A DNA stretch of 64,000 bases from the NCBI GenBank assembly GCA_947458455.1, contig CANGYJ010000006.1:62001-126000 (forward strand), in the 5' to 3' direction. The translations under genes were made by a program, and so were the position numbers. The notes beneath the pieces are model-generated. The model was not told where the DNA came from and made no database searches. It saw only the letters and a program-made list of their open reading frames with translations. This DNA comes from Verrucomicrobiaceae bacterium. GTDB lineage: Bacteria; Verrucomicrobiota; Verrucomicrobiia; Verrucomicrobiales; Verrucomicrobiaceae. Of this stretch, positions 41,732 through 55,572 are shown piece by piece (position 1 is the stretch's first letter; the number at the start of each line of letters is the position of its first letter).

Positions 41732-44110
41732 ATGCAAGTCTCCCTCTCCTGGCTCAGCACTCATCTCGATCTCAGCAGCTACACCGTTCCGCAGCTCTCC
41801 GATCTCCTCACCTTCGCCGGTGTCGAGGTCGAGGGCATCGAAGAACGCGGCGTGACCACCGACAAGGTCGTCGTGGCTCAAATAGACTCCTTTGTGCAAC
41901 ATCCGAATGCCGATAAACTCAGCGTCTGCCAGGTCAACGATGGCAGCGGCACCGCCCGCCAGATCGTCTGCGGCGCGAAGAACTTCAAAGCGGGCGACAA
42001 AGTCCCACTCGCACTCCCTGGAGCCGTTTTGCCCGGAGGATTCACCATCAAAGAAGGCAAACTGCGTGACGTAGCGAGTCTGGGCATGATGTGCAGCGGC
42101 AAAGAACTCGGCCTTGGCGACGATCACAGCGGCCTGCTCATCATGGCCGCCGATTCGCCCATCGGCACGCCGTTCAACCAACTGAATCCCGCCGACGTGC
42201 TCTTCGACCTCGAAATCACGCCGAATCGCCCCGACCTCCTTAGCCACCTCGGCCTCGCCCGCGAGCTCAGCGCCCTCACCGGCATCCCCCTCAAAGGCCA
42301 GCGCGATTACACCGCCACCAAGACCAAAACCGACTCCTCCGACATCAAGCTCGAAGCCAAAGACGCCTGCCCGCTTTACACCGCCCGCCTCATCAAAGGC
42401 GTCAAAGTCGGCCCCAGCCCAGAATGGCTGCGTCGTCGCCTCGAAAGCATCGGTCTGCGTCCCATCAACAGCATCGTGGACATCACGAACTACGTCATGA
42501 TGGAGATGGGCCAGTCGCTGCATTGCTTCGACCTCGACAAGCTCAACGGCTCCATCGTCGTGCGCCAAGCCACCGATGGCGAAAAATTCCTCGCTCTCGA
42601 TTCGCAAACCTACACGCTGCAAACCGACGACCTCGTCATCGCCGATCAAAAGCGTGCCGTCGCCATCGCCGGCGTCATGGGCGGTGAAGAAACCGGCGTC
42701 ACCGAGGTCACCACGAACGTGCTCCTCGAAGCCGCTTGGTTCACCCCTTCGAACATCCGCCGCACCTCCCGCCGACTCGGTCTTAGCAGCGACAGCAGCT
42801 ACCGTTTCGAGCGCGGCATCGACCCCCAGCAAGTCCAAGGAGCCTCCGAACTCGCCACGAGACTCATCCTCGAAATCGCCGGAGGCACCGCCGACGACGT
42901 TTTGCTCGTCGCAGGCGAAACACCCGTTTTGACCTCCGAAATCACGCTCGACGACGACCGCGCTCGCAAGCTCCTCGGCACGGCGGATCTCTCCAGCGAC
43001 GAAATCCGCTCCATTTTGACCAAACTCGGCCTCACGCTCGAAAACGGCCGTTGGACCGTCCCCAGCTACCGCGCCGACCTCCAGCGCCCCGTCGATCTCA
43101 TCGAAGAAATCGCCCGCGTCATCGGTCTCGACCGCGTTCCATCCAAAATGACCGCTGTCGCCGTCCCCAGCGACGCCACGGACCGCGCTTACGACTTCGC
43201 CATGACCATCCGTCAGGCTTTGGTGAATCGCGGCTGCTTTGAAGCGCAAACCCTGCGCCTCGTCGCCGAAGCTCAACTCGCCGACACCCTCGGCGGCGGC
43301 ACCGGCGTCGCCGTGAAAAATCCGCTCAGCGAAGACCACACCACGCTGCGCCCCAGCATCATCCCAGGCCTCATCGCCACCGCCGCACTGAACATCCGCC
43401 AAGGTGCCGACCGCTTGCGCTTCTTCGAGCTCGGCCGCGTCTTCCTGAAGCTCCCGAATGGTGGCAGCCGCGAAGAAGAACGCCTCGCCATCCTCATCAG
43501 CGGCCCCGTCAGCCCATCGAGCTGGCACGCCCGCACCCCGCAGCCTGCCGACATCAATGAATTGATGGGCATTATCCAAAATCTGCCCGGCCTCAGCCGC
43601 GTCAGCATCGAGCCAAAGGCCGTCAAAGAATCCCCCGCGAACTTCCTGCTCACCAGCGAACTCCGCGCCGGCAATCGCAACCTCGGCTGGATCGCCCAAC
43701 TGCATCCGTCCCGCGCCCGCGACATCAGCGCCCGTCATCCCGTCTATGTAGCCGAGCTGCTCCTCAGCGCCCTACGCCAAGGCAGCACCGGCCCCGCGAA
43801 ATTCGAAGAACTCCCCCGCTTCCCCGGCATGACCCGCGACGTCGCCATGGAAGTCCCCGCCGATCTTCCGCACGCCAAAGTCGCCGCTTTCTTCGCCACG
43901 CAGAAAGAGCCCCTCTTCATTGCCAGCGAAGTCTTCGACGTCTTCACCGACCCCACCGGCCAAAAGATCCCCAGCGACCGCAAATCCATCGCCTGGACCC
44001 TCACCTACCGCAGCCCCGAAAAGACCCTCGAAACCGCCGAAGTCGATGCCGCCCACCAGCGCATCCTCGCCGCGCTGGAGAAGGCTCTGCCGGCCACGGT
44101 GCGGCGGTAG
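41732..44110 (+). CDS. pheT: Phenylalanine-tRNA ligase beta subunit
   Basis: A 792-residue protein with the full PheT layout: an EMAP-like tRNA-binding domain (about 40-150), the B3/4 editing domain (about 205-390, with ITNYVMMEMGQSLHCFDLDK), B5 (about 405-475), a class II-like core (about 480-690) and a C-terminal FDX-ACB anticodon-binding domain (about 695-792). It partners PheS and edits mischarged Tyr. The last 201 bp, encoding 66 residues of FDX-ACB and the stop, recur at 49667-49867, so this 3' end may have been supplied by an inserted element. The complete gene appears functional. Confidence 0.95.
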   Translation: MQVSLSWLSTHLDLSSYTVPQLSDLLTFAGVEVEGIEERGVTTDKVVVAQIDSFVQHPNADKLSVCQVNDGSGTARQIVCGAKNFKAGDKVPLALPGAVLPGGFTIKEGKLRDVASLGMMCSGKELGLGDDHSGLLIMAADSPIGTPFNQLNPADVLFDLEITPNRPDLLSHLGLARELSALTGIPLKGQRDYTATKTKTDSSDIKLEAKDACPLYTARLIKGVKVGPSPEWLRRRLESIGLRPINSIVDITNYVMMEMGQSLHCFDLDKLNGSIVVRQATDGEKFLALDSQTYTLQTDDLVIADQKRAVAIAGVMGGEETGVTEVTTNVLLEAAWFTPSNIRRTSRRLGLSSDSSYRFERGIDPQQVQGASELATRLILEIAGGTADDVLLVAGETPVLTSEITLDDDRARKLLGTADLSSDEIRSILTKLGLTLENGRWTVPSYRADLQRPVDLIEEIARVIGLDRVPSKMTAVAVPSDATDRAYDFAMTIRQALVNRGCFEAQTLRLVAEAQLADTLGGGTGVAVKNPLSEDHTTLRPSIIPGLIATAALNIRQGADRLRFFELGRVFLKLPNGGSREEERLAILISGPVSPSSWHARTPQPADINELMGIIQNLPGLSRVSIEPKAVKESPANFLLTSELRAGNRNLGWIAQLHPSRARDISARHPVYVAELLLSALRQGSTGPAKFEELPRFPGMTRDVAMEVPADLPHAKVAAFFATQKEPLFIASEVFDVFTDPTGQKIPSDRKSIAWTLTYRSPEKTLETAEVDAAHQRILAALEKALPATVRR
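43910..44110 (+). repeat. pheT 3'-end direct repeat, copy 1 (possible attachment-site segment)
   Basis: 201 bp at the end of pheT aligned without gaps to 49667-49867 in the same orientation. By eye there are 10 differences (191/201 identical), 8 of them synonymous, including the stop codon TAG against TAA. The two copies bracket 5556 bp of accessory genes. This is the pattern left when an element integrates in a gene's 3' end and carries a replacement end. Confidence 0.85.
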
Positions 44111-44157
44111 TGAGCAGCCGACTTGACGCCATCGGGCTCCTCCTGCAGCATCGCAAG

Positions 44158-45598
44158 ATGCTTCCCAGATCACTCTCGTCGCTGATCCCTGCCCTCGGAT
44201 TTGCTTCATGCCTATTCTTGGCAGATGAGCTCTCAGCCCAGACGGTGTTTGCACCTGTGGAGGTTCAGATCACCTCGACGGCCGGGCTGGTGAATGTCAC
44301 GTCAGCGACAGGGACGAAAATCACCGATCTTCAAGTGCCCACAGCCAGCGGAGAAAAGCCGACCACGGCGACGCATCGGCCGGGAGCCGTCACATTGAGA
44401 CGGGTCCTGACAGCCAAGCCACCGTTTCGATCCCAGGCGCGGGGTCGATGCTGCTCGGAGCCGAAACCCAGGTGCGCCTGCCGAAGACGGGCGACAAAGC
44501 CCAATCGCTCGAGCTGCTCAAAGGCAAACTCTTCCTCAACATCAGCGCCGAGGAGGTGAAAAAGCGGGGCGACGCCAGCTTCCGACTGAAAACGCCCGCC
44601 GCGCTGCTCGCAGTCAAAGGGACGAAGTTCTTCGCCTCCGTAGAAAATGCTTCGGAGACCTGCGGTGTGCATGAGGGCATCATTGGCAGCTATCCCATTG
44701 CCTCAGGGCTGCTAAATGAGGTGCAGGCGGGATACGCATTGAGCGTGTTCAAAGGCAAGCCACCTGCTATCCGCCGACTCACTGAGAAGGAGCGCCGTGA
44801 GGAGATTAACTATCAACTCGCCGTCGCTGAGGGCCGCTTCACGAACAGCCTAGGCATGAAGTTTGCACCCGTTCCAGGCACAAACGCGTTGTTTTGCATT
44901 CACGAAACGCGCAACAGCGACTTTCAGCCATTTGTATTGGCGATGGAATCGACTGATGAAAAAGTTCAGTGGAAGGGTGGTAAACCAGACAATCATCCTG
45001 TTTATGGCATTGAAATTGCAACGGCAGTAGGCTTTTGCCGTTGGTTGGAGGAAAAAGAGAAGGGCGTAATTAGTTACCGTCTTCCAACGGATGAAGAATG
45101 GAGCTACGCAGTAGGTATCGGCAGAAGGGAGTCTGCACTGTTGCCACTCGCAAAAAAAGATTTGCATCTGCTTCTGGATGGAAAAATCATGGCGTTTCCT
45201 TGGATGGGTTCCTGGCCCCCTAGTTATAGAGTTGGCAACTATTATGACGAAAGCGCGTCCATTGACCCGTTCACAGGTCGCCGGGTAACGCAACCCTACC
45301 TGAATGGATACACGGACAATTACCCTGGCCTCGCCCCAGTGATGAGTTTCAGACCAAATCGTTTTGGATTATTTGATTTGGGCGGGAATGTTTTGGAGTG
45401 GGTTTACATTCAACAGGAAGTAGAAGATGGAGGCGTCTCTCCGCCATGGGCAAAGAAATCTCCCCTGAAACAACTGCTCGCGGAGGTGACTGGTCTTCTG
45501 GAACATTGGATGCCATTTTGTCATCCAAGCGCTTTCGGGTGGAGACATCTGGATTCCGCGTGGTCATAGATGGAATCATGGATCGCAGGATTAAATGA
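44158..45598 (+). pseudogene. Frameshifted FecR-like plus formylglycine-generating-enzyme (SUMF1) protein
   Basis: Three successive reading frames make up one protein. Frame A (from ATG 44158) gives a signal peptide ending SAQ and the start of a FecR domain. Near 44390-44410 it must shift by -1 into the frame reading ETGPDSQATVSIPG and continuing through FecR (LLKGKLFLNISAEEV, FRLKTPAALLAVKGTKF) into a SUMF1 domain (SYRLPTDEEWSYAVG, FGLFDLGGNVLEWV). Near 45455-45470 a second -1 shift restores the C-terminal RGGDWSS, LSSKRFR and SGFRVV. Both shifts fit single-base losses. Parts of it are visibly AT-richer than pheT (about 45% GC at 44881-45060 by hand count). Sequencing error cannot be excluded. 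Confidence 0.75.
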
Positions 45599-45652
45599 CA
45601 AAGTTAGGCTTGTCTGCACGGCAGTTGTTCAGCGCACAAAGATTCCAGCAAT

Positions 45653-46000
45653 ATGGCTCATCATTTAAGCCTCAAAAAGCGTCTATTATTTGGTGGCCTG
45701 ATCAGTCTCAGTCTGGCTTTCTTGGTTTTGTGCGGAGCTTTTGACTCGCTGGAAGACCTCTCCGTTGACGCACGTCTGCGAACACGGAAGCCACAGGCGG
45801 TTTCGGATGAAGTTCGGCTGGTGGGCATTGGCGACCGGGATGTGGGAACGGTGTTGGGGCGGTGGCCTTTTCCAAGGGCGGTGCATGGGAATGTGCTGCG
45901 CATCTTGAAGGCCTTGGTAGCTCGCCATGTGACTTTTGATTTGCTGTTCAAGGAGCCATCAGCGGATGCATTTTCTATCATGCCAATAAGTGTGGCTTGA
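45653..46000 (+). pseudogene. Truncated CHASE2 gene, 5' fragment 1
   Basis: A 115-codon open frame with an N-terminal membrane helix and the beginning of a CHASE2 sensor: DLSVDARLRTRKPQAVSDEV, LVGIGDRDVG, GRWPFPRAVHGNVLRILKAL and HVTFDLLFKEPSADA. It follows the intact cyclase at 47756 up to EPSxDA, then runs into ten unrelated residues and TGA (breakpoint about 45972). More than 500 codons, including the cyclase domain, are missing. A TA pair starts 31 bp later. It sits where the CHASE2 partner of the upstream FecR gene would be expected. Confidence 0.85.
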
Positions 46001-46031
46001 CCCCATTTTGCTCCATGGGTAGCCTGCGGTT

Positions 46032-46241
46032 ATGATCGCCACTCGCACACCTCTCCGTCAGCGTGCTCTCAAACTGTCAGCATCAAGGCGGATGAGCCTT
46101 GCCGTCTTGCTGTTGGAGAGTCTGGAGGAGACGACCCCCGATGCTTCGGTGCTCAAGGAGCTGAAAAAGAGATCGGCTGAACTGCGCAGCGGACGGGTGA
46201 AGGGACTGACCACCGAGAAAGCGTATGGATTCTCGCTTTGA
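46032..46241 (+). CDS. Addiction-module antitoxin (TIGR02574-like)
   Basis: A 69-residue protein resembling the short antitoxins called putative addiction module component. A helical N-terminal half (RQRALKLSASRRMSLAVLLLESLEE) is followed by a basic/acidic tail (LKELKKRSAELRSGRVKGLT) whose Arg-x-Gly near the end is typical of this family. It overlaps the toxin gene by 17 bp. The pair sits between two CHASE2 5' fragments. Autoregulation is expected but no operator is recognised. Confidence 0.75.
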   Translation: MIATRTPLRQRALKLSASRRMSLAVLLLESLEETTPDASVLKELKKRSAELRSGRVKGLTTEKAYGFSL

Positions 46242-46554
46242 GCTGATCCATCATCCGCAGGCGGCGGAGGATTTTCGACAGTCCGAGGGATACTTTGCAG
46301 AGATCGACAAGGATTTAGCCGAACTTTTCCGGGCTGATTTTCAGGTCGTGTTGCGAGGGATTGCCGCAGGGAGATTCAAGGGGCAGCTTTTAGCTGTCGG
46401 ACAGGCCATCCGTTGGGTGAAGCTGGCTCACTTTTCCCACAAGGTATTTTTCGAGCCGGATGGGACGGCTCGCCTCCTCGTGCTCGGTGTGATCAGCGGA
46501 CGCCGACATCCCACACGCATCCGGCTCTTGTTGGGGCGTCGCCGTCGGGCGTAA
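46225..46554 (+). CDS. RelE/ParE-superfamily toxin
   Basis: A 109-residue basic protein. It begins with the ParE-like strand MDSRFELIHHPQAAEDF, a YFAEIDKDLAELFRADF helix pair, GQAIRWVKLAHFSHKVFF and a closing LLVLGVISGRRHPTRIRLLLG strand with conserved Arg and His residues, as in RelE/ParE toxins paired with TIGR02574 antitoxins. The target (ribosome-bound mRNA or gyrase) cannot be told. The next CHASE2 fragment starts 12 bp downstream. Confidence 0.8.
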   Translation: MDSRFELIHHPQAAEDFRQSEGYFAEIDKDLAELFRADFQVVLRGIAAGRFKGQLLAVGQAIRWVKLAHFSHKVFFEPDGTARLLVLGVISGRRHPTRIRLLLGRRRRA

Positions 46555-46566
46555 CTTGCACCCCTC

Positions 46567-47058
46567 ATGAACCATCTCCTCCGCCTCCAAGCCCGTTTCC
46601 TGCTCGGCTGCCTCGTGGGCCTGCTGGTGGCTGCTTTGGCGTGCGTGAGCCTGTTTGACCAGGTGGAGGACCTCACTGTGGACGCGCGTCTGCGGACGCG
46701 AAAGCCGCAGATCGTTTCCGATGAGGTGCGTCTCGTGGGAATCGGCGACCGGGATGTGGGATCGCCTCTGGGGCGGTGGCCGTTTCCGCGGGCGGTGCAT
46801 GGGGATGTGCTGCGCATCTTGAAGGCGTTGGGGGCTCGGCATGTGACCTTTGATGTGTTGTTCACGGAAGCTTTGGAGGTGCCGGAGCAGGATGTGGTGC
46901 TCCAGCAGGCGGTGGAGGAGCACGGGCAGGTGACGCTGGCCTACTACTTCGAGCTGGCTGAGCACGGGATGGGCGTGAAGGGCCTGATTTCTTCGCCCAT
47001 CCTGTCATCTGCAATATGGGTACGCTCAGATGGTGAATTGAGGCTTGCCGCAGGGTAA
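46567..47058 (+). pseudogene. Truncated CHASE2 gene, 5' fragment 2
   Basis: A 163-codon frame whose first about 130 residues closely match the intact cyclase at 47756: LLRLQARFLLGCLVGLLVAA, DLTVDARLRTRKPQ, LVGIGDRDVG, GRWPFPRAVHGDVLRILKAL, FDVLFTEALEVPEQDVVL and VTLAYYFELA. After about 46960 it reads into unrelated sequence and ends with GELRLAAG and TAA. It is longer than fragment 1, so the breakpoints differ. A small-protein/HNH pair follows from 47079. Confidence 0.85.
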
Positions 47059-47078
47059 ACTTGGCAAATAATGGTCAC

Positions 47079-47336
47079 ATGTCCCAAACCACCTTCAACC
47101 TGCTCGAACACTCGCTGCTGCCGATGGCAGAGTGCCTGACGCCGCAAGCGGCGGAGCGCATCGTGCAACTGAAAGCCAGTGAGGAGGCGCAAAACCGCAT
47201 CGACGAGCTGGCGGAGAAGTGCAATGAGGGGCTGCTCTCGGCGGATGAGCGGGCGGAGTATGAGATGTTTGTGTGGATCGGGCAGTACATCAGCGGCATG
47301 CAGGCCAAGGCACGTCGTGTGCTAGCTGCGGCATGA
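47079..47336 (+). CDS. Small helical protein paired with the HNH endonuclease
   Basis: An 85-residue protein from ATG 47079 (MSQTTFNLLEHSLLP); a TTG at 47061 would add six residues. It is almost wholly helical, with ECLTPQAAERIVQLKA, RIDELAEKCNEGLLSADERAEYEMFV and a final QYISGMQAKARRVLAA. Proteins with this RIDELAxKxNEGxLxxxERAEYE pattern occur immediately upstream of HNH proteins like the next gene in many bacteria. The function is unknown; regulator or inhibitor of the nuclease is an inference from the pairing. The stop is 9 bp before the HNH start. Confidence 0.7.
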   Translation: MSQTTFNLLEHSLLPMAECLTPQAAERIVQLKASEEAQNRIDELAEKCNEGLLSADERAEYEMFVWIGQYISGMQAKARRVLAAA

Positions 47337-47345
47337 TCTTTCTGT

Positions 47346-47738
47346 ATGAATGCTGAAATCCGCCGCCTCATTCGTCAGCGAGCGGGGGACTGCTGTGAAT
47401 ACTGCGGCATGCGGCAGTCTGACGAGGCTTGGTCCCGCTTTCATGTGGAGCACATCGTGGCCCGCCAGCACAAGGGCGGCGATTCCATGGACAATCTCTG
47501 CCTTTGCTGCCAGCACTGCAATCTGCACAAAGGCCCCAACCTGTCCGGCATCGACCTAGTGACGGGTGTGCTGACGAGACTCTTCCATCCGCGACAGGAC
47601 GTTTGGGATGAGCATTTCAGCGCTGTCGGGCTTGAGATCATCGGCTGCACGCCGATGGGGCGTGCCACAGTCGAAGTCCTGGCCATGAACTCGTCGAAGC
47701 GCATGGATTTCCGCCGAAGCCTGCGTGGCGATGGCTGA
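47346..47738 (+). CDS. HNH endonuclease family protein
   Basis: A 130-residue HNH protein. Zinc knuckle 1 is CEYCGMRQS (about 18-26), the His-Val-Glu-His-Ile catalytic strand is FHVEHIVARQHKGGD (about 33-47), and knuckle 2 is CCQHCNLHKGPNLSGID (about 56-72). A C-terminal LFHPRQDVWDEHF segment is typical of the stand-alone HNH proteins that travel with a small helical partner. It lies between CHASE2 fragment 2 and the intact CHASE2 cyclase. Whether it helps the cassette move is not known. Confidence 0.85.
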   Translation: MNAEIRRLIRQRAGDCCEYCGMRQSDEAWSRFHVEHIVARQHKGGDSMDNLCLCCQHCNLHKGPNLSGIDLVTGVLTRLFHPRQDVWDEHFSAVGLEIIGCTPMGRATVEVLAMNSSKRMDFRRSLRGDG

Positions 47739-47755
47739 CTTTCATTTCTTTTTTC

Positions 47756-49663
47756 ATGAACCGTCTCCTCCGCCTCCAAGCTCGTGTCCTGCTCGGCTGC
47801 CTCGTGGGCCTGCTAGTGGCCGCTTTGGCGTGCGTGGGCCTGTTTGACCGGGTGGAAGACCTCACGGTGGACGCACGCTTGCGGACGCGGAAGGCGCAGG
47901 CGGTGTCCGATGAGGTGCGGCTAGTAGGCATCGGGGACCGGGATGTGGCCGCGTTTGGGCGTTGGCCGATGCAGCGGGGTATCCATGGCAACATGCTGGA
48001 GGTTCTGCGCACAGCGGGGGTTAAGCACACGACCTTTGATGTGGTGTTCGCCGAGCCCTCGGTTGATGCCAAGCAGGATGAGGAACTGAAGGCGGCCATC
48101 GAGAAGCAGAAGGATGTGACGCTGGCGTATCACTTTGAGCAGGCCCAGCTAGGCGGGCCGACGAATGAGGCGGAGCAGGCGCATTTCATCGTGAAAGACG
48201 AGGCGGGGCAGTATGGGCTGGATGTGAATGCCCTGTCGTTTGTGCGGGGTAGCCTACCGGTGCCCTCGTTTGCGAAGCTGCCGGTCAGTTACGGTGCGGT
48301 GAATGTGGTGCCGGATGAGGATGGCGTGATCCGGCGGGTGCCGCTGTACTTTGCGCACCTGGGTAAGCTCTATCCAAGCCTGGCCATGCAGACGATCATC
48401 GCGGCCCTCGGCGTGGAGCAGGGAGCGGTCAGCGTGGTGCCTGGAAAAGAAATAACGCTGGTCAGTACGCCGCATGGCACCCTGCGCATCCCGATCGATG
48501 AGCATGGGCAGTACCGCATCAATTTCCTGGGCGGACTGGAGGTGTTCACCCCTGCCTTCGATTATTCGAGCCTCTATTTGGCCGTGGAGTCCGATGATGC
48601 GGCCTATCGCGAGCAGGTAACGGCAGCCTTGAACAACCGCATCGCTCTAGTCGGAATCGCCAGCACAGGGAACACCGACATGGCAACCACCTCCATCGGT
48701 CGCATCCCCGGTGTGGCGGTGCAGGCCACGGTAGTCAGCAACATTCTCTCCGGCAATCACCTTCGTTTCCTGCCCATCTGGCAGCAGATGCTGCTCATCA
48801 TCGGAGCCGGGGCCCTGCTCGGGCTGGGTATGTGGCCCTCGCGGGTGTGGCTGGGCATCGGCCTTTTTATCTTAGTGAGCGCCGCATGGTGCTGGGTGGC
48901 GTTTCAAGCCGCGAACACAAACCTCATGTTGCCGCTCGTGCCGGTGCTGGCGGCGTTCAGTGGTGCCACCCTCGTTTTGCTGGGCCTGGAGGCAGCCCTC
49001 ATGAAAAAAGACCGCTCGCGGGTGGTGAGCGTGCTCGGTCGCTACATCGCCCGGACGGTGCTGCAACGGCTCGTGGACACCGACAAGGCCGCCCCGGCCT
49101 ACACGGAGCGCCGCGAGCTGACGATCTTCTTCTCGGACATCCGCGGTTTCACCGCATGGACCGAGCGCGCCGAACCCGATGAGGTCGCAGCCCGATTGAA
49201 CGAATACTTTGCCGCCATGACGCCCCTTGTTGAAAAGCACGGTGGCACGCTGGACAAATTCATCGGCGACTGCGTCATGGTTTTCTTCGGCGCACCCGCA
49301 GCGGATGAAAAACACGCCCTTCATGCCGTGCAGATGGCCCTCGACATGCAGCAGGAGATGTCCCGCCTGAACGAAAGCTGGCGCAAACGCGGCTACGACC
49401 CGCTGCACATCGGCATCGGCATCCACACCGGCTTTGTCACCGTCGGCAACTTCGGCTCATCCGACTTTCTCGACTACACTGTGATCGGCCGCGCTGTAAA
49501 CCTCGCCGCCCGCATTGAATCCCAAGCCGAAGGCGGCAAAGTCCTCATCTCCACCCGCACCCATTCGCTCGTCCGCGACGAGGTGAAAACTCAGCCGCAC
49601 CCTGACCTCGTGCTGAAAGGCATCCCCGATCCGCAGGTGGTGTGGGAGGCGGTGCATAGATGA
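47756..49663 (+). CDS. CHASE2 domain adenylate cyclase (class III)
   Basis: A 635-residue protein and the only intact member of three CHASE2 paralogues here. It has an N-terminal membrane helix (about 8-28), a periplasmic CHASE2 sensor (about 35-330), three hydrophobic segments (about 340-415) and a cytoplasmic class III cyclase domain (about 450-630). Catalytic elements: IFFSDIRGFTAW (metal Asp), GTLDKFIGDCVMVFFGAP (Lys and second Asp) and DYTVIGRAVNLAARIE, whose Lys/Asp pair suggests ATP rather than GTP. It would make cAMP in response to an envelope signal. Its TGA is 3 bp before the pheT-end copy. Confidence 0.92.
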   Translation: MNRLLRLQARVLLGCLVGLLVAALACVGLFDRVEDLTVDARLRTRKAQAVSDEVRLVGIGDRDVAAFGRWPMQRGIHGNMLEVLRTAGVKHTTFDVVFAEPSVDAKQDEELKAAIEKQKDVTLAYHFEQAQLGGPTNEAEQAHFIVKDEAGQYGLDVNALSFVRGSLPVPSFAKLPVSYGAVNVVPDEDGVIRRVPLYFAHLGKLYPSLAMQTIIAALGVEQGAVSVVPGKEITLVSTPHGTLRIPIDEHGQYRINFLGGLEVFTPAFDYSSLYLAVESDDAAYREQVTAALNNRIALVGIASTGNTDMATTSIGRIPGVAVQATVVSNILSGNHLRFLPIWQQMLLIIGAGALLGLGMWPSRVWLGIGLFILVSAAWCWVAFQAANTNLMLPLVPVLAAFSGATLVLLGLEAALMKKDRSRVVSVLGRYIARTVLQRLVDTDKAAPAYTERRELTIFFSDIRGFTAWTERAEPDEVAARLNEYFAAMTPLVEKHGGTLDKFIGDCVMVFFGAPAADEKHALHAVQMALDMQQEMSRLNESWRKRGYDPLHIGIGIHTGFVTVGNFGSSDFLDYTVIGRAVNLAARIESQAEGGKVLISTRTHSLVRDEVKTQPHPDLVLKGIPDPQVVWEAVHR

Positions 49664-49666
49664 TCC

Positions 49667-49867
49667 CCCCTCTTCATCGCCAGCGAAGTCTTCGACGTCT
49701 TCACCGACCCCACCGTCCAAAAGATCCCCAGCGACCGCAAATCCATCGCCTGGACCCTCACCTACCGCAGCCCCGAAAAGACCCTCGAAACCGCCGAAGT
49801 CGATGCCGCCCACCAGCGCATCCTCGCCTCGCTGGAGAAGGCGCTTCCAGCCACGGTGCGAAGATAA
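49667..49867 (+). pseudogene. pheT 3'-end direct repeat, copy 2 (displaced gene end)
   Basis: Encodes the last 66 residues and stop of a PheT protein but has no start and no upstream pheT body; the CHASE2 cyclase ends 3 bp before it. It matches 43910-44110 without gaps at about 95%. The two amino-acid changes are Gly to Val and Ala to Ser; the other eight differences are silent. The excess of silent changes means both copies were once under selection in complete pheT genes, not simply a fresh duplicate decaying. Confidence 0.85.
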
Positions 49868-49924
49868 GGGCACAGCCTCCCACCACATCGGATTCATTTG
49901 AGCGATGAAGTGATGAATCTTGAT

Positions 49925-50211
49925 AACTAGACCGGTTCTCAGAATGTTTGTCATTTACCCTACGGGCCTGAAAGTCCCTTGGCAATGCAGCCTAGGCTCG
50001 TAGAGCCAGGGTTCGTGTTGGGAAGGACCGTAGCACTCTGAAAGAGTGTGGGAGAACTTTCGCAGCTTCTCTTGCGCTCTTTCAGAGCGCCCGGTTTTGT
50101 TCGTGGCAAACCCAAGGTTTGCGCAGCTTCGCCACTCCAACCCCGGGCTGGATTCCTGGAGGCTTTCAGCCTCCTTCGAACCAGACATTCTGTTTGAGAA
50201 CCGGTCTAGTT
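49925..50211. mobile_element. MITE-like hairpin-rich element with 17-bp terminal inverted repeats
   Basis: AACTAGACCGGTTCTCA at 49925-49941 is perfectly inverted at 50195-50211, enclosing a 287-bp unit. Inside are several perfect hairpins: 49995-50007, 50034-50048 (CACTCT/AGAGTG), 50074-50090 (GCGCTCT/AGAGCGC), 50108-50120 and 50158-50174 (GGAGGCT/AGCCTCC). No coding frame of interest and no clear target duplication is seen. The rest of the 49868-50318 gap shows nothing else. It may be a non-autonomous element or a structured RNA. Confidence 0.6.
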
Positions 50212-53457: not shown

Positions 53458-53532
53458 CGGGCTAAAGCCCGAACTACGAACTACGTACACCGCCTCTCCG
53501 AGGCGGACATTCGGCGGGAATCAAATCCCGCC
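53458..53532. repeat. Intergenic hairpin and heptamer cluster
   Basis: This gap segment combines a CGGGCTAAAGCCCG palindrome (53458-53471), two GAACTAC heptamers (53471-53484), a CCGCCTCTCCGAGGCGG palindrome (53490-53506) and GGCGGGAATCAAATCCCGCC (53513-53532). The last nearly repeats the hairpin at 268-287, and the heptamers match units of the 374-469 array. The two gaps clearly share a repeat vocabulary. Confidence 0.75.
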
Positions 53533-53558
53533 CTCCCAGTCTCGCGGTCTTCTTCACT

Positions 53559-54197
53559 TCAGAATCGCAGCCGTAGGTAGGTGCCGAGGACGGATTCGTG
53601 GGTCCAGGTGGCTTGGGTGCGGTTGGAGGCGATCATGTAGAAGAGGTCGATATCCGCCTGGGAGCCCAGTTTGAAGGTGAGGCCGAGAGGGATGAGGCGG
53701 TTCTCGGTCTGCTGGAGGCGGTGGAGGTCGGTGAGCCATTCGTTGCTGACGAAGAGGCGGGTGAGCGGGCCGAGGGGTCGCGGGAAGGTCCAGGCGAGTT
53801 GGAGTCGCTGGCGGCTGCGGTGGGTGGTGAAGGTTTGTGCTTCGTTCCAGCGCCATTCGAGTCGGTTCCGCCATTCGAGGGCGAGGTGCGGGGTGAGATT
53901 GAAATGGGGGTTGAGCTCCAACTCGGGGCGGAACTGGGTGAGGCGGTCTCCAGTGCGGGTGTTTTCGATGCTCAGAAGCGAGAGGCCGATGCCGCCTTCG
54001 AGCCAGGGAAGCAGGGCGTGCTTAACCCGCGGGCTGGCGATTTGGACGTAGGAGCCATCGTCCACATCGGCGCGGTTGCCGAGGAAGAGGGAGGCGCGGA
54101 TTTGAGCGGAGCGCCAGTATTCGAGATTGGTCCAGGCCCACCATTCATCGGCATGGAGGCAGGTGGTGGTGAGCAGGAGCAGGAGGAAGATTCGCAT
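53559..54197 (-). CDS. DUF2490 family outer-membrane-type protein
   Basis: A 212-residue protein with a signal peptide (MRIFLLLLLTTTCLHADEW, cleavage near residue 16). The remainder is a run of amphipathic beta strands with many aromatic ends (WWAWTNLEYW, LEWRNRLEWRWNEAQTF, RLFVSNEWLTDLH) and a terminal strand YLRLRF ending in Phe, as expected for an outer-membrane beta barrel. The pattern matches DUF2490. The function is unknown. Confidence 0.75.
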   Translation of the reverse strand: MRIFLLLLLTTTCLHADEWWAWTNLEYWRSAQIRASLFLGNRADVDDGSYVQIASPRVKHALLPWLEGGIGLSLLSIENTRTGDRLTQFRPELELNPHFNLTPHLALEWRNRLEWRWNEAQTFTTHRSRQRLQLAWTFPRPLGPLTRLFVSNEWLTDLHRLQQTENRLIPLGLTFKLGSQADIDLFYMIASNRTQATWTHESVLGTYLRLRF

Positions 54198-54268
54198 TCC
54201 GTCTCATAAGGAAGGAAAAGGGCCAGTCTGGATGAATTGCTGGCACATTGGTCATTCATCATTAAAAC

Positions 54269-55462
54269 ATGTCTCCTTCCATGGTCCCTCTTCTCGACGT
54301 CAACGCCCAGAACCACCCGCTCGAATCCGAACTCCAGGCTGCCTTTACCCAGGTGATGAAGCATGGCCGGTTCATCATGGGGCCGGAGATGGAGACTTTT
54401 GAGAAGGAAATCGCGACCATGACGGGTGCGAAGCATGCCCTTTCCGTCTCTTCCGGCACGGATGCGCTGCTGCTGGCCCTGATGGCGCTGAATATCCAAC
54501 CGGGCGATGAAGTGCTGTGCCCGGCTTTCACCTTCTTTGCCACGGCGGGGGCGGTTTCACGCCTCGGGGCCTTGCCGGTCTTTACGGATATTTGCCCGAT
54601 CTGCTTCAACCTAGATGTGAACGACGCCCGGAAGAAGATCACCGCCAAAACGAAGGCGATCATTCCGGTGCATCTTTTTGGCCAATGCGCGGACATGGAC
54701 CCGATCCTCGCTCTGGCAGCCGAACACGGCCTAAAGGTGGTGGAAGACGCGGCGCAATCCATTGGGGCGGCTTACAAGGGCCGTCAAAGCGGCACGATGG
54801 GCCACTTCGGAACCTACAGTTTCTTCCCGAGCAAGAACCTCGGTGGTTTCGGTGATGGCGGCATGTTGGTGACGAATGACGATGAACTGGCGGAGTTTGC
54901 CCGTGTGCTCCGAGTGCACGGCAGCAAGCCGAAGTACTACCATCACTATGTGGGTGGAAACTTCCGCATGGACACCCTGCAATGCGCCCTGCTGAGCGTG
55001 AAGGTGAAGCGCTATGCTCAATATACCGCTGAGCGGCAGCGGAATGCCGTCCACTACACCACGGCGCTCGCGAAGTTGCCGGGCATCGTTTTGGCCGATC
55101 CGGCGCACTGCAAATGCGCCTCGGCGCAGGCTGCGGCGCTGGCGGCTCAAGGCGCGAAGATCGTGCTGCCGGTGGCTTACGGCCACAATTCGCACATTTG
55201 GAACCAGTTCACCCTCCGCGTGCTCGGTGGCAAGCGCGATTCCCTGCGTGACCATCTGGTGGCGAAAAAGATCGGCTGCGACATCTATTACCCCGTCACG
55301 CTCGACCAGCAGCAGTGCTTCGCCGATCTGCCCGTCAGCAGCCGCCGTGGCTGCGAGGTGGCCCACCAGCTCGCTGGCGAGGTGTTGAGCATCCCGATCT
55401 ACGGCGAGCTGAGCGAGGCCCAGCGCGAGGAAGTCATCGCTTCCATCGCGGAATGGCTGTGA
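54269..55462 (+). CDS. DegT/DnrJ/EryC1/StrS aminotransferase
   Basis: A 397-residue PLP enzyme of the sugar aminotransferase family; ATG 54281 is an alternative start. SSGTDALLLAL (about 61-71) binds the cofactor phosphate, VVEDAAQSIGA (about 157) supplies the PLP-ring Asp160, and FFPSKNLGG holds the Schiff-base K189. GGNFRMDTLQCALL and GHNSHIWNQFTLR are further family blocks. Members transfer an amino group to nucleotide-linked keto sugars for surface polysaccharides. A short insert near 275-300 (HCKCASAQAAALAAQGA) is unusual. No other sugar-biosynthesis gene is adjacent. Confidence 0.9.
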   Translation: MSPSMVPLLDVNAQNHPLESELQAAFTQVMKHGRFIMGPEMETFEKEIATMTGAKHALSVSSGTDALLLALMALNIQPGDEVLCPAFTFFATAGAVSRLGALPVFTDICPICFNLDVNDARKKITAKTKAIIPVHLFGQCADMDPILALAAEHGLKVVEDAAQSIGAAYKGRQSGTMGHFGTYSFFPSKNLGGFGDGGMLVTNDDELAEFARVLRVHGSKPKYYHHYVGGNFRMDTLQCALLSVKVKRYAQYTAERQRNAVHYTTALAKLPGIVLADPAHCKCASAQAAALAAQGAKIVLPVAYGHNSHIWNQFTLRVLGGKRDSLRDHLVAKKIGCDIYYPVTLDQQQCFADLPVSSRRGCEVAHQLAGEVLSIPIYGELSEAQREEVIASIAEWL

Positions 55463-55572
55463 CGGCCTGAGAGCAGGCAAAGCTGGTCTTTGGTGAATTG
55501 ACGCCGGAATCGAAATTTCTCAGAATCGGGCTCCTTTTCTTCGGGAGTTGTCCCACCAGCCACCACACCAGC

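Follow-up and report, generated by a model that had tools for sequence, protein, structure and literature searches.

The e14 prophage of Escherichia coli K-12 is described, in the part of the source available to us, as an element at the 3′ end of icd (PMC6379469). Insertion with long target duplication has been reported for restriction-modification (R-M) genes of Helicobacter pylori, for which the accessible portions of the reports give direct copies of the order of 100 bp and no known mobile element (PMC1643837, PMC3874152, PMC4978471). One-sided recombination was proposed, in the available excerpt of another report, for displaced immunity genes of the type VI secretion system (T6SS), for example in Vibrio cholerae arrays (PMC5361080), and at 29% of the sites of cDHS1, a core defense hotspot next to pheS-pheT in Pseudomonas aeruginosa, no mobile gene was detectable according to the accessible part of its description (PMC10250203). 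Filled hotspots that lack a visible integrase are common and hard to explain. Here we analyze 64,000 nucleotides of DNA from a Verrucomicrobiaceae bacterium (contig CANGYJ010000006.1), the whole of which we call the window, in which the last 201 bp of pheT are repeated downstream as an orphan at the far edge of an accessory island. Our results suggest that the end of pheT is a repeated docking point for foreign genes, with no visible integration enzyme; and we give slightly less than an even chance, a probability of about 0.47, to the reading that it gained accessory DNA by homologous recombination through the gene end, without an integrase. No published description of this case was found in the open-access literature searched.

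The repeated end of pheT

The pheT gene of the window, encoding the phenylalanyl-tRNA synthetase beta chain, occupies positions 41732 to 44110 of the + strand, on which the genes of the island and both repeat copies given below also lie, and is intact (792 amino acids; Pfam domains B3_4, tRNA_synthFbeta, FDX-ACB, tRNA_bind, and B5). It had matches in 36 of 37 genomes searched, and the best named relatives of its product were Verrucomicrobiaceae and Prosthecobacter metagenome-assembled genomes, at most 96% identical, pointing to a Prosthecobacter-like organism. The end of this functional gene, 43910 to 44110 (the left copy, L), aligned with 49667 to 49867 (the right copy, R, an orphan pheT end) over 201 bp in the same orientation and without a gap, with 10 mismatches, two of them changing an amino acid (Gly to Val and Ala to Ser), seven silent, and one a swap of the stop codon between TAG and TAA. 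The alignment and the genome search thus bear out an earlier note on this DNA, which had described a gapless repeat on one strand with ten differences, eight of them synonymous if the stop is included. At both amino acid changes the right copy is the bearer of the rarer residue. A search of the 28 contigs (5.35 Mb) of the source genome found exactly two copies of the 201-bp end, and the right copy was also recovered by a profile of pheT ends from the genus with an E-value of 8e-53, which excludes chance likeness.

The differences are not spread evenly. Seven of the ten fall in the last 25 bp, all of them silent, the stop included (P = 1.9e-5 for clustering), so that the two copies are 98.8% identical over the first 162 bp and 79.5% identical over the last 39 bp. 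When the left copy was compared with its nearest relative, the pheT of genome G057 (genomes of our sample carry labels in G, loci in L, and contigs in C), the corresponding values were 98.1% and 82.1%, and the right copy gave the same two values. Over the last 39 bp the left copy was closest to G041 (92.3%), and the right copy to G057 and G014 (82.1%). The left and right copies therefore look like alleles of two strains, as the earlier note had proposed, their profile of divergence matching that between the left copy and G057. Moreover, the closest relative shifts along the length of the window pheT, indicating that strains exchange pieces of this gene. We dropped the idea of a chimera with a swapped tail, as each of the 21 pairings possible between the left copy and the six relatives nearest to it had lower similarity in the last 39 bp than in the first 162. 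For 18 pairs from the genus at least 95% identical over the first 162 bp, a selection that itself favors a weaker tail, 17 had the weaker tail and the 18th was identical. We take the diverged tail as probably ordinary allelic divergence in this group; counting against that view, the mean identities over all genus pairs, some with tails out of register, were equal (64.3% and 65.2%).

pheT ends in related genomes

The genus sample comprised 48 genomes, and 46 of these gave a match to the C-terminal part of PheT. For 38 genomes, the window included, between about 2 and 20 kb of DNA downstream of pheT was read. In 16 of these, pheT was followed by a conserved convergent gene of 388 amino acids, which we take to be a class-V aminotransferase; the source genome had its best counterpart, 73% identical, on another contig. 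The empty state was seen in G004, where the stop of pheT directly abuts the stop of the convergent neighbor, and the remaining 15 genomes had extra sequence between the two genes. Filled sites in G008, G059, and G015 held inserts of 3.6, 4.4, and 4.9 kb, respectively, with genes other than those of the window, and at the far edge of each was an eroded pheT end touching the stop of the neighbor (profile E-values 0.067, 8.5e-4, and 0.0022 in the same order). G008 and G059 have an identical internal deletion and are one event. Detached pheT ends were also found on contigs without pheT in G049 (E = 3.6e-27; L097, 3101 to 3254) and G060 (E = 9e-29; L096, 1987 to 2100), beside genes which, from their sequence character, we assume to be AAA-type ATPase and helicase-like; the flank of the G049 orphan, presumably TlpA-like, had no match behind pheT in the loci examined. 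Altogether the protein search of the 48 genomes and the DNA profile search of the 38 regions gave a recognizable orphan pheT end in six genomes.

The orphans start at different positions of the profile (10, 36–37, 56, 96, and 165), which does not look like a single att site, even if the edges of local alignments and erosion may hide a common start. The functional pheT genes of G008, G015, G017, G045, G059, and G060 end in PAK(V/I)R(G/V), an ending seen in none of the 32 other genomes listed, and the orphans of G015 and G059 read LPATVRK; as sequences, these endings would fit an exchanged pheT end. Thus, the proposal of the earlier note that integration at the 3′ end of a gene left this footprint stands insofar as leftover pheT ends occur in relatives, with G004 as the comparator, and finds no support in the varied starts of the orphans, some of which erosion may explain. 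The note had also suggested looking in related genomes for an empty site in which pheT is followed directly by the flank beginning at 49868, and for related islands with an integrase at pheT. The first was not found in any genome read, as judged from lists of DNA matches with few candidates scored per genome, and the second was absent among the PF00589 matches listed. Draft assemblies may break at such repeats, and the pheT of G059 is split between two contigs. At G057 an 835-bp insert directly follows the stop of pheT without a pheT remnant. An Mpl-like neighbor of pheT (G014, G041, G057) was traced to C9:5467 of the source genome, and the candidate was discarded as no pheT remnant lies beside it.

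The cargo behind pheT, named here for part of the relatives, was varied. We found genes for ParE and a Phd-type antitoxin in G011 (with relatives in G040 and G046), UPF0175 and DUF3368 in G012 (relatives of both in G023, and of UPF0175 alone in G001 and G002), a DUF6036 nucleotidyltransferase in G057, a DUF4062 protein in G059, a large protein matching NPHP3_N weakly in G015, and a dCTP-deaminase-like gene in G008. No recombinase family and no transposase family was found with Pfam in the nine open reading frames (ORFs) of the island that were scanned, three of which had no Pfam match at all; the statement of the earlier note that no integrase is visible in the island accordingly holds for these nine. 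Among the PF00589 matches listed for the 48 genomes, none was closer to pheT than 50 kb (a search that did not extend to serine recombinases), the nearest on the same contig being about 59 kb away, in G038; and none of the matches listed for the source genome (5 of 9) was on its contig C6. Many of the contigs that carry pheT are short, which limits the distance over which any integrase could be seen.

The island, its cassettes, and its flank

The island spans 5556 bp, from 44111 to 49666, and at the DNA level nothing like it was found downstream of pheT in any of the 37 relatives read. It begins with a FecR plus FGE-sulfatase-like gene (44448 to 45569; PF04773, PF03781). Two orphan 5′ ends of a CHASE2 gene follow, standing around the toxin-antitoxin (TA) pair and the HNH cassette: copy 1 (45653 to 46000; PF05226, residues 22–104), which forms direct repeat D2 with copy 2 at 82% identity, and copy 2 itself (46567 to 47058; PF05226), which forms a 395-bp direct repeat, 76% identical, with the start of the full-length gene, so that both 5′ ends are direct repeats of that start (D1, D2). 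Between them are a putative antitoxin (46032 to 46241; PF09720 Unstab_antitox, with TIGR02574 below the cut-off) and an ORF (46225 to 46554), without a Pfam or NCBIfam match, which from its position and sequence character we presume to be a RelE/ParE-type toxin. The HNH cassette consists of a small partner gene of 91 amino acids (47061 to 47336; no Pfam or NCBIfam match), relatives of which, at many loci among those examined, sit ahead of related HNH genes, and an HNH nuclease gene of 130 amino acids (47346 to 47738; PF01844, E = 1.9e-9); the HNH domain resembles the IscB model, below the cut-off, and the PtuB model. Last comes the full-length gene for a CHASE2-guanylate/adenylate cyclase (47756 to 49663; PF05226, PF00211), the stop of which is 3 bases upstream of the orphan pheT end. 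This domain content agrees with the accessory nature that the earlier note had ascribed to 44111 to 49666, with its broken genes, TA pair, HNH cassette, and CHASE2 paralogs. We do not claim a Pycsar system, as the CHASE2-cyclase matches the Pycsar cyclase models of PADLOC over the cyclase domain only.

At the protein level, relatives of the HNH gene were found behind pheT in G044, with the partner gene, and in G001, within about 1 kb. Relatives of the CHASE2-cyclase, 69–78% identical, occurred in G017, G059, and G008, where CHASE2-cyclase genes lie next to several FecR/FGE genes at other loci, showing that the island cargo has relatives elsewhere. In G059 a detached 3′ end of a CHASE2-cyclase gene with two internal stops (L128, 8282 to 8662; G059:C1) lies past a FecR gene, a further case of a gene end located beyond an insertion.

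Relatives of the HNH gene were present in 37 of the 48 genomes (116 matches, 18 of them in G015 alone), and we examined 71 distinct cassettes, 11 from G015 and not all independent, for direct repeats of 25–395 bp within 200 bp of both edges. Such repeats flanked 9 of the 71 cassettes and 6 of 500 random windows (P = 1.2e-5), the random windows being drawn solely from loci behind pheT with five of their six hits in one locus, L098. Without the window's own cassette the count was 8 of 70 (P = 5.8e-5), and when L243 and L260, which border similar sequence, were counted once as well, it was 7 of 69 (P = 2.7e-4). An earlier definition of the edges had given 4 of 73 cassettes and 4 of 400 random windows; the definition was altered after that result, to a uniform left edge, adopted because partner genes often went undetected, and a distance of 200 instead of 250 bp, which gave 9 of 73 and 6 of 500 (P = 1.5e-5), and removal of the double counts (L039, identical with L188, and one in L259, identical with L173) reduced 73 to 71. 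Of these repeats, those of L165 and L174 are the 5′ end of the gene adjoining the cassette, those of L243, L251, and L260 begin at the 3′ end of the adjoining gene, and that of L179 lies upstream of the next gene; those of L233, L252, and L259 were left unclassified by gene position. We consider it quite improbable that small HNH (and TA) cassettes of this genus move by a nuclease-stimulated, integrase-free process, in which a cut made by the HNH enzyme near a gene terminus would be repaired from a donor so that cassette and fresh end are copied and the old end is orphaned, with the pheT island as a larger product.

A scan of 965.9 kb of the source genome gave 12 direct repeat pairs, six of them flagged by the script as gene ends, and one inverted pair. 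Among the direct pairs were gene-end repeats at C1:80465-80843/84323-84704 (383 bp, 92%) and C2:98446-98544/100243-100340 (99 bp, 91%) and copies of a gene start at C2:12229; the gene-end pair at C1:366528-366605, found in the first scan, fell below the E cut-off once more sequence was added, and C1:225232 was rejected since it is no gene end. In 350 kb of E. coli K-12, used as a control, there were seven direct pairs and no inverted pair, one of them flagged as a gene end (IS30); the others are tRNA copies and, by inference, REP sequences. The excess of direct repeats is thus not peculiar to the source genome and proves nothing genome-wide.

Outside the island, 57 bp behind the orphan pheT end, is a MITE-like element of 287 bp (49925 to 50211) with imperfect terminal inverted repeats of 28 bp (I1); at least three matches in G016 (91%) covered about 49927 to 50209, and shorter ones were found in G057 and in C2 and C4 of the source genome. 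A dispersed short repeat of about 60 bp (53477 to 53537) had matches of 90–94% in C1 of the source genome and in G041 C25, among the matches listed. Farther on, a block with a presumably DUF2490-like gene (no NCBIfam match) and a DegT-type aminotransferase gene (53563 to 55466) is about 87% identical in G041 and G057 and lies there on contigs other than those of pheT, so that the position of the right flank, too, is not shared.

Origin of the island and comparison with known systems

We propose that incoming DNA from another strain would have carried a stretch of the pheT 3′ end joined to accessory genes, and that a crossover within this short homology would have placed those genes behind pheT, either by a single crossover of a circle or by one-sided recombination with an illegitimate junction at the far side. 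One copy of the pheT end would then complete pheT, and the other would remain as an orphan at the far edge; pheT is intact because one of the two copies completes it. We infer the exchange of the functional end, the crossover itself, and the form of the incoming DNA, and likewise that a similar process gave rise to the orphaned CHASE2 5′ ends between which and beside which the TA and HNH cassettes stand. Homology is present at the left edge of the island, namely the pheT end. That no integrase was seen, that the orphans start at variable positions, and that the cargo is varied together favor recombination through gene-end homology, and varied orphan lengths are to be expected if the stretch of homology is arbitrary. 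Homologous recombination with incoming DNA, which the earlier note had named as an alternative, thus fits somewhat better than an integrase element. The ComEC and DprA families are present in the source genome; as both are also present in the E. coli control, this is weak support for DNA uptake.

Several points weigh against recombination through the gene end. The same end product would result from an integrase in trans. At the right junction the stop of the CHASE2 gene runs into a C-tract that is common to pheT, so that the C-run is uninformative on microhomology. All three orphans at the filled sites (G008, G015, and G059) are short, and an orphan was seen in only 3 of the 15 genomes with sequence between pheT and the neighbor. 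An unrelated place in the window's own region scored an E-value of 0.017 in the profile search, better than the 0.067 of G008, and the G008 case is therefore carried by the position of its orphan at the junction, not by the score. G015 may belong to the same event as G008 and G059, the three relatives then representing one old event, and the PAK ending could have arisen by later substitution instead of exchange. Finally, no sister strain with this exact empty site or with this island was present among the genomes examined, which makes the native and donor parts of the two copies indistinguishable.

Of the other explanations, the one that fares best, though we think it unlikely, is a remnant of a site-specific element of the e14/icd type, in which an integrase, now lost or acting in trans, would have recombined the element-borne and chromosomal pheT ends, so that pheT is now completed by the end that the element brought, with the former end displaced to the far side. 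It accounts for an architecture and silent differences like those of icd/icdC, for the use of the same pheT end in several relatives, and for a direct repeat that is the end of the target gene with one copy completing that gene; it sits poorly with the differing starts of the orphan pheT ends and with the searches reported above, which found no recombinase family in the nine ORFs (three without a Pfam match) and no listed PF00589 match within 50 kb of pheT, serine recombinases lying outside that search.

Also unlikely is insertion with long target duplication as understood by Nobusato et al. (2000), in which an event resembling transposition would have copied about 200 bp of the target and left identical copies to diverge later. 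In its favor are the flanking repeats at 9 of 71 HNH cassettes (8 of 70 if that of the window is set aside), compared with 6 of 500 random windows, the further repeats of the source genome at C1:80465, C1:366528, C2:12229, and C2:98446, and the arrangement of accessory genes between long direct target copies without a transposase in the ORFs scanned, and it has a precedent in the R-M gene literature, to the extent of the accessible portions of those reports (PMC3874152, PMC1643837). The absence of a transposase family among those ORFs also speaks against it, however, and the predominance of silent changes between the two pheT ends indicates two alleles and not decay after copying. Partial tandem duplication within one genome, from the pheT end to the CHASE2 end, followed by deletions and cassette insertions and with no foreign pheT allele, is very improbable, since the 98.8% identity over the first 162 bp and the repeated CHASE2 5′ ends that suit it are outweighed by sequences that diverge immediately after the left and right copies, by seven differences in the last 25 bp that are all silent, stop included, as decay of an orphan would not give, and by three relatives with the same layout and different cargo.

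Because both filled and empty states of the pheT end are available, and the orphan can be seen, single-crossover capture, target duplication, and an integrase in trans become testable against one another. If exchange of gene ends proves general, orphan gene ends would be a simple marker for integrase-free islands, and the termini of essential genes would be swapped between strains as a side effect.

Recombination through the pheT end has partial parallels in each of the systems described at the outset. Like cDHS1, the locus has variable defense cargo beside pheST genes; the cDHS1 region differs in also holding ihfA, a MerR gene, and a proline tRNA, and the available part of its description does not mention a duplicated pheT end (PMC10250203). 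With homology-facilitated illegitimate recombination it shares, as far as the accessible excerpts go, one edge anchored by homology, the presence of cargo, and a remnant of the earlier gene beyond its replacement (PMC5361080, PMC3240628), whereas the leftover at the T6SS loci excerpted is an immunity gene kept for use, that of the window is a non-functional pheT end, and one-sidedness is for the window a proposal. The insertions with long target duplication, in those portions of the reports at hand, likewise hold accessory genes between direct target copies without a known mobile element, but the cargo of the window is TA, HNH, and CHASE2-cyclase and not R-M, its copies have diverged mostly at silent positions, and the duplicated piece is a gene end. 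The e14 prophage differs in having intE and xisE by annotation, whereas in the window island no integrase was seen, orphan lengths vary, and the cargo is non-phage. In the layout of the repeat itself e14 and the island are alike, each lying at the 3′ end of a housekeeping gene, with one copy completing the gene and a mostly silently diverged orphan of similar length at the far edge; for icd/icdC at e14 the same comparison gave 12 differences over 165 bp, 10 of them silent.

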